Assembly: GCF_000385565.1 (NCBI RefSeq)
Contig: NC_021169.1
Span: forward strand, 620,001 to 684,000
Direction: 5' to 3'
Source: Archaeoglobus sulfaticallidus PM70-1
Lineage (GTDB): Archaea > Halobacteriota > Archaeoglobi > Archaeoglobales > Archaeoglobaceae
Length of the DNA: 64,000 bases
Shown: positions 40,250 through 51,099 of the stretch, in pieces
Layout: each line of letters opens with the position of its first letter
Position numbering within the stretch: the first letter of the stretch is position 1
Made by a program: the position numbers and the translations under genes
The notes under the pieces: generated by a model
The model's database searches: none
Told to the model about the DNA's origin: nothing
What the model saw: only the letters and a program-made list of their open reading frames with translations

Positions 40250-41741
<1,492 letters not shown>

Positions 41742-41757
41742 AAGGTGTTTCAGCCTC

Positions 41758-41788
41758 CGCTCACCGGAGTCCAAATACTCAAGCCCAC
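41758..41788 (+). other. 3' arm of the 16S bulge-helix-bulge stem
   Basis: CGCTCACCGGA + GTCC + AAA + TACTCAAGCCCAC pairs with 40189-40219 as described for the leader. The geometry, two 3-nt bulges separated by 4 bp, is that recognised by the archaeal splicing endonuclease. Confidence 0.75.
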
Positions 41789-41795
41789 GGAAGAG

Positions 41796-41810
41796 TAACG
41801 CTTATAAATT
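41796..41810 (+). promoter_or_regulatory. Promoter in the 16S-23S spacer
   Basis: TAACGCTTATAAATT carries a TATA box at 41801-41809, about 25-30 bp before the 5' end of tRNA-Ala (41834), the right place to start a tRNA-Ala/23S transcript independently of 16S. Confidence 0.55.
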
Positions 41811-41833
41811 CATCGAATTAAACTCGATCAGCT

Positions 41834-41906
41834 GGGCTCGTAGCTCAGCTGGGAGAGCGCCGCCTTTGCGAGGCGGAGGCCTCGGGTTCAAATCCCGACG
41901 AGTCCA
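41834..41906 (+). tRNA. tRNA-Ala (anticodon TGC)
   Basis: The 73-nt tRNA pairs acceptor GGGCTCG with CGAGTCC, has discriminator A, anticodon stem CCGCC/GGCGG around TTTGCGA, and T loop TTCAAAT. Its place between 16S and 23S is usual in euryarchaea. CCA is not encoded. Confidence 0.97.
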
Positions 41907-41972
41907 TTATATGATGCACCCGGTGATGAAAAAGTCATCGGGGAAGGGTTGATGCCTATACGGCATGTGAAG

Positions 41973-42005
41973 CCATGTAAAGGTCCACTTCCCCAGGTAC
42001 ATACT

Positions 42006-42010
<5 letters not shown>
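41973..42010 (+). other. 5' arm of the 23S bulge-helix-bulge stem
   Basis: This arm pairs with 44950-44985. The outer helix is CCATGTAAAGGTCCACTTCC with GGAAGTGGACCTTACATGG. The centre is GTAC (41997-42000) with GTAC (44958-44961), flanked by bulges ATA (42001-42003) and ATG (44962-44964). The inner helix is CTGGGACC/GGTCCCAG. Confidence 0.75.
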
Positions 42011-44955
<2,945 letters not shown>

Positions 44956-47781: not shown

Positions 47782-48483
47782 ATGGATGCTGAGAGACTGC
47801 TGATAGACAAAATATCAGGAGATATAATCTTTTCCAGCAATCCCGGCAAAACCATAAAGAAGTGGAGAAACATTTTTGAGGTCTCTCAGAAAGAGATTTC
47901 TGAGAAAATTGGAGTATCTCCATCTGTTATTAGTGATTATGAAAGTGATAGAAGAAAATCTCCGGGAATAGCATTCATAAGGAAGATAATCTCGGCTCTC
48001 ATAAGCATAGACAAAGAGAGAGGATACAAAACTCTCTCGAAGTACAAGGACTTTCTGAGCGGATTCGATCTGGATGTGATTATAGATATGATGGAATACG
48101 TGCAGACCATTAACTTCGATGATTTTGTGGAGGCGATAGATGGACAACCTCTTAACAGCTACAGAAAGAATGTCAATGGTTACACGATAGTTGACAGCAT
48201 AAGTGCAATCCTCAAGCTGAGCTCATATGATTTCTACAAGCTGTATGGGTTCACATCCGAAAGGGCGTTGATCTTCACGAAAGTATCTTCTGGCAGGTCT
48301 CCTATGGTTGCCGTTAGAGTCTCTGCCTTTAAGCCAGCTCTGATCGTCCTTCACGGATTGAAAGCGGAGAATGTTGATGAAATAGCCCTGAAAATATCTG
48401 AGGTTGAAAAGATTCCACTCATCGTTTCAGAAAAATCGGTTGAGGATATGATAAAGAGTTTGAGGAGGATTGGAAATGGTTAG
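47782..48483 (+). CDS. Archaeal HTH regulator (COG1709-like)
   Basis: The 233-residue protein has a Cro/C1 helix-turn-helix at about 35-60 ([20 protein letters not shown]), with a long C-terminal domain ending in a Rossmann-like strand ([20 protein letters not shown]), typical of COG1709. A TATA element (TTTTTAAAATT) about 25 bp upstream suggests a leaderless mRNA. It overlaps the HMG-CoA synthase gene by 8 bp, so it may regulate that operon; a metabolite ligand for the C-terminal domain is an inference. Confidence 0.85.
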
Positions 48484-49519
48484 TACCGGTATAGTATCAT
48501 ATGGAACCTATATCCCAAAATTCAGGATCAAGGTTGAAGAGATAGCAAGGATCTGGGGAGAAGTGCCTGAGAACATAAAAGCCGGGCTTGGTGTTCAGCA
48601 AAAAAGTGTTCCGGATATTGATGAGGATACAGCAACGATCTCCGTAGAATGTGCCAGAGAGGCGGTGGAGAGAGGCAAAATAAACCCCAAGAAAATTGGA
48701 GCCATATTTGTGGGGTCTGAGAGCCATCCGTATGTTGTCAAGCCTACAGCAACGATTGTTGGCTCTGCAATTGGTTGTGGCAACTTCTTCCACGCAGCAG
48801 ACTTTGAATTCGCATGCAAGGCGGGAACGGCTGGCATCCAGACATGTATGGCCATGGTGAAGTCCGGGATGATCGAGTACGGACTTGCTATAGGTGCAGA
48901 CACAAGCCAGAGTGCACCCGGAGACCCGCTTGAGTATTCTGCATCGGCAGGAGGATCGGCATTTATAATAGGTAAAGAAAATCTGATAGCGGAGTTTGAG
49001 GACACGCTGTCGTTCACTTCCGACACACCGGATTTCTGGAGAAGGGAGGGACAGCCATATCCAAGTCATGGAGGCAGGTTTACCGGATTGCCGGCTTATT
49101 TCAGACATGTGGTGTCAGCAGCGAAAGAGATTATGGAGAGGAACGGATACAGACCCTCAGACTTCGCCTACGCTGTTTTTCACATGCCAAATGGTAAGTT
49201 CCCTGTGAGGGCTTCGAGGATGCTTGGCTTCAGCAGGGAACAGACCGAACAGGGACTGGTTGTGAGGAGGGTTGGAAACACATATTCAGGCTCCTCGCTT
49301 CTGGGATTCTCTGCAGTTTTAGATGTTGCTAAGGCTGGAGATAAGATATTGCTGGTATCTTTTGGCTCTGGAGCGGGAAGCGATGCGTTCATAGTGAATG
49401 TGACCGATGCAATAGAGAGCTTTCCGAGAGAGCCAAAGGTCTGGGACAAGATTGAAAGCGGAGTGTATGTGGACTACAGCAGGTATCTGAAGCTGAGAAG
49501 AAAGATTAAGATGAAGTGA
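48476..49519 (+). CDS. hmgcS: Hydroxymethylglutaryl-CoA synthase
   Basis: From ATG 48476 (GAGGAGG 7 bp upstream) the enzyme has 347 residues; TTG 48470 is less likely. It condenses acetyl-CoA with acetoacetyl-CoA at the start of the archaeal mevalonate pathway. The acyl-accepting Cys is C114 in [11 protein letters not shown]; Glu82 (VGSESHPYV) and the His in [11 protein letters not shown] complete the active site. It is translationally coupled to the regulator and followed by the thiolase after 9 bp. Confidence 0.95.
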
Positions 49520-49528
49520 GGTGGTTGC

Positions 49529-50692
49529 ATGCAGAGAGTGGCGATTGTTGGGGTTGGACAGAGCGAGTTCGGAGAGCTGTGGGATAGGGGATTCAGGGAC
49601 ATCGTGCTGAAGGCTGGAAGTGAGGCTTTGGACGATGCCGGGCTTGAAGGAAAGGAGATAGAGGCAATATATGTGGGCAATATGAGCGGTGGGAGGTACC
49701 TTGAGCAGGAGCACATTTCGGCATTGATAGCTGATTACTCCGGATTGGCTGAGCTTGGAATTCCTGCTACGAGGGTTGAAGCTGCTGATGCGAGCGGTGG
49801 TCTGGCTTTGAGGCAGGCTTTTCTCGCAGTAGCATCCGGAGTTCACGATGTTGTAATGGCTGCTGGAGCTGAGAAGGTCACGGATGTCGGCTCTGAGATG
49901 ACGGCGGACATAATGTCATCTACCGCAGACAGGGAGTGGGAGGGATTCGTGGGGGCGACAATTCCCGCACTGTACGCGATCATGGCGAGAAAGCACTTTG
50001 AAAAATATGGCACCACAGAGGAGGATTTAGCACTGGTCAGCGTCAAAAACCACAGAAATGGAGCGTTGAATCCAAAGGCTCAGTACAGGAGGGAGATTAA
50101 GGTTGAGGATGTGCTGAACTCTCCCAAGGTTGCTGAACCTCTCAAGCTCCTCGACTGTGCGCCGCTGAGCGATGGAGCCTGTGCGGTAATTCTCGCCAGT
50201 GAGAAGGTTGCGAGGCAGATTACCGACAACCCGGTTTTTATATCTGCAAGTGCTCAGGCGAGCGATTATCTGGCGATTCAGAACAGGAGGGATATAACCG
50301 AGATGAGGGCTGTGAGAGTAGCTTCAGAGAAGGCGTACAGGATGGCCAGGGTCGAGCCAAGGGACATCGATGTTGTCGAGGTGCATGATTCCTTTACGAT
50401 TGCCGAGATAATGGCTTATGAAGACCTCGGATTCGCTGAGAAGGGTAAAGGAGCGGAGCTTATAAGGGAAGGTGTAACCTCCCTTGAAGGCTCTCTGCCA
50501 GTCAACACTGGAGGGGGATTGAAGGCATGCGGACATGCGGTTGGAGCTACGGGGATAAGGCAGGCGATAGAGATAACACTTCAGCTGAGAGGAGAGGCTG
50601 GCAAGAGGCAGGTTGAGTGCGAGAGGGGGTTATCACTGAACATAGGCGGGACGGGAGCGACAGCAGTTGTGACAATCTATGAGAGGGGGTAG
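49529..50692 (+). CDS. Archaeal thiolase-fold protein with Asp at the nucleophile position
   Basis: The 387-residue protein belongs to the SCPx-type archaeal thiolases that make acetoacetyl-CoA in complex with HMG-CoA synthase and DUF35. The His motifs VEVHDSFTIAE (near 284) and GGLKACGHAVGATG (near 337) and the C-terminal NIGGTGATAVV are present. The nucleophile motif, normally A-A-C-A-S-G, reads AADASGG, with Asp at residue 87 (GAT codon). The HDCF Cys is also Ser. Thiolase activity as usually understood is therefore doubtful, though operon position and other motifs are intact. GAGGTGG precedes the ATG. Confidence 0.88.
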   Translation: MQRVAIVGVGQSEFGELWDRGFRDIVLKAGSEALDDAGLEGKEIEAIYVGNMSGGRYLEQEHISALIADYSGLAELGIPATRVEAADASGGLALRQAFLAVASGVHDVVMAAGAEKVTDVGSEMTADIMSSTADREWEGFVGATIPALYAIMARKHFEKYGTTEEDLALVSVKNHRNGALNPKAQYRREIKVEDVLNSPKVAEPLKLLDCAPLSDGACAVILASEKVARQITDNPVFISASAQASDYLAIQNRRDITEMRAVRVASEKAYRMARVEPRDIDVVEVHDSFTIAEIMAYEDLGFAEKGKGAELIREGVTSLEGSLPVNTGGGLKACGHAVGATGIRQAIEITLQLRGEAGKRQVECERGLSLNIGGTGATAVVTIYERG

Positions 50693-50700
50693 GTGGTATA

Positions 50701-51099
50701 ATGCTTCCGAGGTTCTGGAGGAAGATAAAGTACAGGTATGATATTGTTGGCACAGTATGCGAGAACTGCGGGTCGAAGTTCTACCCACCAAGGAACTTCT
50801 GTCCGATTTGCAGGAGGAAGGGGAAGATAAGGGAACAAACTTTCAGTTCGAAGGGCAGGATTTTGAGCTACACCGTTGTTCATGACGCTCCGGATGAATA
50901 CAAGCTGGCGAAGCCATATATCGTTGCTCTGATAGAGCTCGACGATGGCGTGGTTCTGACATCGCAGGTTGTTTGCGATCCGCAAGAGGTGCATATTGGA
51001 ATGAGGGTTAAAAAAGCCTTCAGGAAGTACTACGAGGATGGAGAGAGTGGGATAATCTACTACGGAACGAAGTTCGTGCCGGATGATGGCGAGGTGTGA
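50701..51099 (+). CDS. DUF35 (OB-fold with zinc ribbon) protein
   Basis: The 132-residue protein has a zinc ribbon with C-x2-C pairs (VCENCGSKFYP, FCPICRRKG) and an OB fold (SSKGRILSYTVVHDAPD). It is the third part of the archaeal thiolase/HMG-CoA synthase complex, where DUF35 dimers bind CoA and channel acetoacetyl-CoA between enzymes. It starts 8 bp after the thiolase stop. Confidence 0.93.
   Translation: MLPRFWRKIKYRYDIVGTVCENCGSKFYPPRNFCPICRRKGKIREQTFSSKGRILSYTVVHDAPDEYKLAKPYIVALIELDDGVVLTSQVVCDPQEVHIGMRVKKAFRKYYEDGESGIIYYGTKFVPDDGEV

Follow-up and report, generated by a model that had tools for sequence, protein, structure and literature searches.

The archaeal complex of thiolase, HMG-CoA synthase (HMGS) and DUF35 protein is interpreted as a channel by which the unfavourable condensation of acetyl-CoA is drawn forward, and thiolases in general carry a nucleophile cysteine. 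In the solved complex from Methanothermococcus, the DUF35 protein reportedly bridges thiolase and HMGS, and an active relay from thiolase to HMGS is said to have been proposed. One passage of a published account has residues from each of the three proteins binding the CoA in this structure (6ESQ; PMC6392133). The mevalonate operon of Archaeoglobus sulfaticallidus PM70-1 holds the same three genes side by side, with a thiolase that lacks the nucleophile cysteine.

The mevalonate operon of the window

The window is the whole stretch of DNA analysed, 64,000 nucleotides of a genome assembled as one contig of 2,076,931 bases. The genes of the operon and its upstream neighbour are as follows.

47782 to 48483, + strand: HTH_3 transcription regulator gene, upstream of HMGS and overlapping it by 14 bases
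48470 to 49519, + strand: HMGS (TIGR00748, 532.8 bits)
49529 to 50692, + strand: archaeal SCP2-type thiolase homologue without the nucleophile cysteine, 387 amino acids, starting 9 bases past the HMGS stop
50701 to 51099, + strand: DUF35 protein with zinc ribbon and OB fold (Pfam PF01796/PF12172), 8 bases past the thiolase

Both HMGS and DUF35 genes adjoin the thiolase gene, whose frame is open over its full length. The HMGS active site is intact, with Glu84, His238 and Cys116, the last being the residue (Cys114 in Methanothermococcus numbering) that the first-pass annotation had rightly called unchanged, and all four cysteines of the DUF35 zinc ribbon are present. The HTH_3 gene is a candidate regulator of the operon, and an HTH_3 regulator was detected beside the operon in 36 of 36 Archaeoglobaceae loci and in many other archaea. 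A few kilobases upstream of the operon lies an rRNA operon (16S, tRNA, 23S; 40250-44942, + strand); the open reading frames listed at 44039-44808 fall inside its 23S gene and are spurious.

Active-site substitutions in the thiolase

The window protein has the thiolase fold, as an AF2 model (pLDDT 96.2) superposes on 6ESQ chain A at 0.8 A over 383 residues (Z 67.3, 49% identity). It scores 576 bits against the NCBIfam subfamily PRK06064 (cut-off 420) and 560.8 bits against the equivalog NF053570 (AcCoTHIOL_METTL; cut-off 600). Positions of note are listed here.

49787 to 49789, + strand: Asp87, codon GAT, at the position of the nucleophile cysteine
49877 to 49879, + strand: Val117, as in 36/36 Archaeoglobaceae; the Cys thiolases compared all have Met (36/36)
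50159 to 50161, + strand: Ala211, as in 35/36 Archaeoglobaceae; the Cys thiolases compared all have Ser (36/36)
50384 to 50392, + strand: His286-Asp287-Ser288, the HDCF motif with its acid/base Cys replaced by Ser
50417 to 50419, + strand: Tyr297, where Cys thiolases mostly have Ile or Leu
50522 to 50524, + strand: Lys332, invariant in Cys and Cys-less forms, in the retained loop before the GH motif
50534 to 50539, + strand: His336 and Ala337; the catalytic His is kept, and Cys thiolases have Pro at 337

In the alignment with the Methanothermococcus thiolase of 6ESQ (378 bits, full length), VEAACASG has become VEAADASG, in agreement with the codon, and the earlier reading of aspartate for the nucleophile at residue 87 is borne out by both. 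Serine for the HDCF cysteine was also read correctly (codon 288 is TCC, within E-V-H-D-S-F); this is the weaker feature, since the acid/base position is Ala or Ser in 16 of the 57 thiolases that have Cys87 as well. The statement that the His motifs are intact stands for His286 and His336, but overlooked the change of Pro337 to Ala beside the latter. The window protein therefore lacks the nucleophile cysteine of archaeal thiolases (Cys85 in 6ESQ) and the HDCF cysteine, and retains both catalytic histidines.

Fixation of the loss in Archaeoglobaceae

Asp87 is found in all 36 Archaeoglobaceae orthologues, each from a separate genome (30 GAT, 6 GAC; both are two base changes from TGY), with 65-83% identity and HMGS adjacent in every case. 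The comparison that the first-pass annotation had proposed, with the thiolase of the solved complex and with Archaeoglobales orthologues, places Asp opposite the 6ESQ cysteine and throughout Archaeoglobaceae. Archaeoglobi outside Archaeoglobaceae keep the cysteine (L020, L118, L121, L124, L125), and it is also present in the remaining HMGS-adjacent thiolases sampled from the phylum. A comparison with 36 Cys thiolases gives seven positions at which Archaeoglobaceae have a different fixed residue (T12S, C87D, M117V, S211A, C288S, I297Y, P337A), most of them at active-site motifs, and found no fixed difference in Archaeoglobaceae HMGS or DUF35. Position 288 is Ser or Val in the 36 orthologues, never the acid/base Cys, while Asp87, His286 (36/36) and the N-x-G-G motif are near-invariant.

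A relocated nucleophile was rejected, as no Cys position is invariant among the 36 orthologues (C210 is Cys in 29/36 and C334 in 32/36). A nucleophile cysteine elsewhere in the protein was the refutation offered for the original claim, and the claim survives it.

Recurrence across archaea

HMGS loci were gathered from Thermoproteia and from the phylum to which the Thermoplasmatota-type archaeon L080 belongs, and the neighbouring thiolase was read; lineage names other than Archaeoglobi are those that we infer. Among 178 HMGS-adjacent thiolases, a set that includes that of the window and counts some genomes twice via two collections, position 87 is Cys in 57 and another residue in 121 (91 Asp, 11 Glu, 8 Gly, 6 Thr, 4 Ser, 1 Gln). 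The Cys-less proteins occur in Archaeoglobaceae, Sulfolobales-type Thermoproteia and Thermoplasmatota, and none of the 121 has Cys at position 288. His336 is kept in 57/57 Cys-plus thiolases and lost in 35/121 Cys-less ones. What had been treated as one odd protein is instead a state fixed across a family and recurrent in archaea. On an HMGS tree of 95 rows, which does not include the trait protein, the presence or absence of Cys must have changed 6 times if the best tree is followed and 3 times if only well-supported branches count; these numbers carry no direction, and Cys is taken as the ancestral state because it is present in thiolases generally. No earlier report of Cys-less mevalonate thiolases was found in the literature searched, a body of work without the 2018 publication of the Methanothermococcus structure.

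Conservation and rate of evolution

No operon examined has lost an HMGS Cys/Glu/His residue (57/57 Cys-plus, 120/120 Cys-less), and nearly all have DUF35 as a neighbour, with its zinc cysteines kept. In a 73-row thiolase alignment, the columns invariant in both kinds are E84, G113, K116, H175, P204, D215, G216, E284, D287, G306, N326, G329, G330, K332 and G335. This set excludes C87, H336 and N371, which indicates that in Cys-less lineages the catalytic positions can change freely while other conserved positions are held. The Cys-less lineages other than Archaeoglobaceae appear, from such patterns in their sequences, to have kept the parts for binding and assembly and to have lost catalysis.

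The median ratio of thiolase to HMGS distance, calculated over pairs that are not independent, is 0.98 in Archaeoglobaceae and 0.88, 1.05 and 1.23 in Cys-plus clades, with higher values in the other Cys-less clades, namely 1.65 in Thermoplasmatota, 2.45 in the Sulfolobaceae-like and 2.58 in the Desulfurococcales-like clade. HMGS divergence is similar across the clades compared, at 0.27 in both Archaeoglobaceae and the Sulfolobaceae-like clade. A pseudogene-like decay in rate, seen in the other Cys-less clades, was thus rejected for the Archaeoglobaceae thiolase. The ratio of change at motif sites to that at other sites is 0.27 in Archaeoglobaceae, 0.12-0.18 in Cys-plus clades and 0.41-0.49 in other Cys-less clades, where motif sites are positions picked by hand and "pocket" refers to those positions, without measured distances. 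Together with the overall rate, this indicates that the pocket is still under selection in Archaeoglobaceae, whether because it binds acetoacetyl-CoA in the shared site or because its reaction has changed.

Other thiolases in the same genomes

Across the 95 genomes on the HMGS tree, Thiolase_N searches detected another thiolase in 60 of 63 Cys-less genomes compared to 7 of 32 Cys-plus genomes (Fisher p 1.5e-13, with relatedness ignored). This association is clustered on the tree, and the well-supported branches provide 3 independent pairs (on average 2.3 agree with the expectation and 0.0 oppose it), which are not significant alone. One genome (G212, L225) was left out of the table, as its second thiolase is a contig-edge fragment. 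The second thiolases that were fetched have Cys, mostly with NEAF/GHP/CxGGG motifs; those of many-thiolase Archaeoglobaceae and of some Cys-plus genomes were counted and not read. No high-quality Archaeoglobaceae genome lacks a further thiolase, and all of these that were read have Cys. Beside the operon thiolase, Archaeoglobaceae genera g5 and g6 have only a canonical one, and genera g8 and g12 only a second one of SCP2 type.

Three of the 63 Cys-less genomes are exceptions in which no other Cys thiolase was found. G260 is a fragmented assembly. G107 (L208, L309, L342) and G122 (L278, L308, L343) are Thermoproteia with HMGS and HMG-CoA reductase, and the only other thiolase found in them is Ser-type and ST0096-like (NTSGSGG), followed in G107 by a DUF35-like gene; the G107 contig read, at 1.32 Mb, is the whole genome.

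A group of Thermoproteia has HMGS without a neighbouring thiolase (L192, L194, L200-L202, L204-L206, L209, L210, L212-L214, L217, L219, L276, L277), with DUF35 directly after HMGS in about half of these loci. In the five read from this group (L314-L318), a thiolase elsewhere keeps Cys, with its own DUF35 in two. Thiolase paralogues with unusual motifs were also seen in L028-L029 and L005-L006 (GTASGG in L029, VGGGTG in L005/L006), some of them beside DUF35.

Probable role of the Cys-less subunit

The Cys-less thiolase is probably a retained CoA-binding and assembly partner, with acetoacetyl-CoA coming from another thiolase. The loss of Cys-type thiolase chemistry in the window protein is strongly indicated by its sequence, and the subunit would no longer perform Cys-dependent Claisen condensation and thiolysis. 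It would be kept as a partner of HMGS and DUF35 for assembly and, by homology with Methanothermococcus, would contribute its part of the CoA-binding cleft that feeds acetoacetyl-CoA to HMGS; homology to 6ESQ and the conservation of K332 and neighbouring residues suggest such an assembly with a shared CoA site. Acetoacetyl-CoA would be made by another Cys thiolase, the canonical NEAF/GHP/CxGGG type that is present in most genomes or, in the two Archaeoglobaceae genera that have no canonical one, the second SCP2-type thiolase present there. A further effect of losing the cysteine would be that acetoacetyl-CoA in transit is no longer open to thiolysis by the complex.

External supply combined with a retained binding and assembly role is the best supported account because both mechanism cysteines are gone throughout Archaeoglobaceae with no invariant replacement, because HMGS catalytic residues and DUF35 are intact in Cys-less operons, because Cys-less genomes carry another thiolase, and because canonical and second SCP2-type thiolases replace each other among Archaeoglobaceae genera. 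It also draws on PhlC and CtSal, homologues that show such cysteines to be essential, on the drift of residue 87 and the loss of His336 in other Cys-less lineages, on PhlABC as a mirror case and on TbSLP, which crystallised with acetoacetyl-CoA. The first-pass annotation had expected acetoacetyl-CoA to come from another thiolase, and the further thiolases of the high-quality Archaeoglobaceae genomes agree with this; its idea of a non-catalytic partner gains support from the recurrence of Cys loss in other archaea alongside another Cys thiolase. Against this account, the Archaeoglobaceae thiolase shows no overall relaxation, Asp87, His286 and N-x-G-G are stricter than assembly alone predicts, G260, G107 and G122 have no other Cys thiolase that we could find, and the co-occurrence is clustered, with only three independent pairs.

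A rival account is a repurposed catalyst, in which Asp87, together with His336/His286 in an oxyanion site that has been retained, would serve as a general base, as in citrate synthase, for enolisation, aldol chemistry or decarboxylation of an acyl-CoA. Different chemistry was also the alternative offered by the first-pass annotation. Asp87 is universal in the family, Asp or Glu occupies the position in 102 of 121 Cys-less operon thiolases, both catalytic histidines persist, and the rate of evolution does not exceed that of catalytic homologues. Taken together, C87D, C288S, P337A, M117V and S211A resemble a coordinated change of the pocket, without counterpart in HMGS or DUF35, and other thiolase-fold partners of DUF35 became aldolases (Ltp2 and Sal bind DUF35 domains). 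We nevertheless consider this unlikely: no substrate or pathway gap demands a new reaction, residue 87 drifts elsewhere to Gly, Ser or Thr with loss of His336, and the Asp/Glu counts are inflated by two large clades. An aldolase of the Ltp2/Sal type was rejected, as the catalytic Tyr of the known YDHF/YDCY motif is absent and HDSF stands in its place. A specific form, in which Asp87 and His336 would run a new acyl-CoA reaction coupled to HMGS, by base-catalysed enolisation or acyl-aspartyl transfer, is doubtful, and we know of no Asp87-based acyl-CoA chemistry in the thiolase superfamily.

It is improbable that the subunit still makes acetoacetyl-CoA, whether through Asp87 as nucleophile (an acyl-aspartyl anhydride) or by condensation without an acyl-enzyme. 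In favour of this reading, the protein retains His336, His286, N371 and G373-G374 and evolves at a normal rate; however, the acid/base Cys is gone too, and to our knowledge no thiolase-superfamily enzyme uses an Asp nucleophile. All high-quality Archaeoglobaceae genomes, moreover, keep another thiolase. In the homologue PhlC, changing the cysteine to Ser or Ala (C88A/S) abolishes activity (PMC6392133).

A takeover of acetyl-CoA condensation by HMGS, leaving the thiolase subunit only to hold the acceptor acetyl-CoA, would suit an operon that stays together and the three Cys-less genomes in which no other Cys thiolase was found, but it is very improbable, as HMGS active-site residues are unchanged, and compensation by HMGS or DUF35 was rejected because neither has a residue fixed differently in Archaeoglobaceae. 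A sequencing, assembly or annotation error behind Asp87 is scarcely conceivable and was rejected, given GAT or GAC in 36 independent genomes, two base changes from TGY, in a frame that is open and full length.

If the nucleophile was lost in several lineages, Archaeoglobaceae and Sulfolobales-type archaea among them, active channelling cannot explain the conservation of the complex there, and a CoA-binding and assembly role, if that is what remains, must suffice to keep it. In Cys-less lineages, the first step of membrane-lipid synthesis is then probably misassigned by annotating the operon protein as "acetyl-CoA acetyltransferase", and the real first-step enzyme would have to be sought elsewhere in the genome. 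G107 and G122, with HMGS, HMG-CoA reductase and no Cys thiolase found, and one of them a single contig, are a direct test case.

Comparison with known systems

The closest relative is the Methanothermococcus complex (6ESQ), which has the same three families, a thiolase that superposes closely on that of the window and the same HMGS catalytic residues. Its Cys85 is Asp87 here, its HDCF Cys is Ser288 and the Pro after its catalytic His is Ala, and a relay via a Cys acyl-enzyme would not be usable by the Archaeoglobus thiolase.

Several thiolase-like proteins have likewise departed from the nucleophile cysteine. ST0096 of Sulfolobus tokodaii (4YZO) is an archaeal thiolase-like protein with Cys replaced by Ser, but it belongs to another paralogue group, and the Ser-type proteins resembling it in this analysis are not encoded next to HMGS, one having its own DUF35-like gene downstream. 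Trypanosoma TbSLP has a thiolase-like fold and binds acetoacetyl-CoA (5AB6) or malonyl-CoA (5AB7); it has no DUF35 partner and about 28% identity to the window thiolase. The Sal-like class, including TbSLP, does not share the thiolase Cys residues, and CtSal, with Gly at the nucleophile position, cannot thiolyse (PMC12329534). Ltp2-ChsH2(DUF35) and Sal-Shy(DUF35) (6OK1, 9MYR) resemble the window protein as DUF35-bound thiolase folds without thiolase-type nucleophile chemistry, but have YDHF/YDCY motifs and act on steroid side chains, whereas the window protein has HDSF, no Tyr and an HMGS neighbour.

The PhlABC acyltransferase (5M3K) combines a thiolase, an HMGS-like protein and DUF35, with one dead partner kept for assembly (PMC6392133). 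There the HMGS-like PhlA is dead and the thiolase PhlC is active with Cys88; the Archaeoglobus operon would be the reverse.
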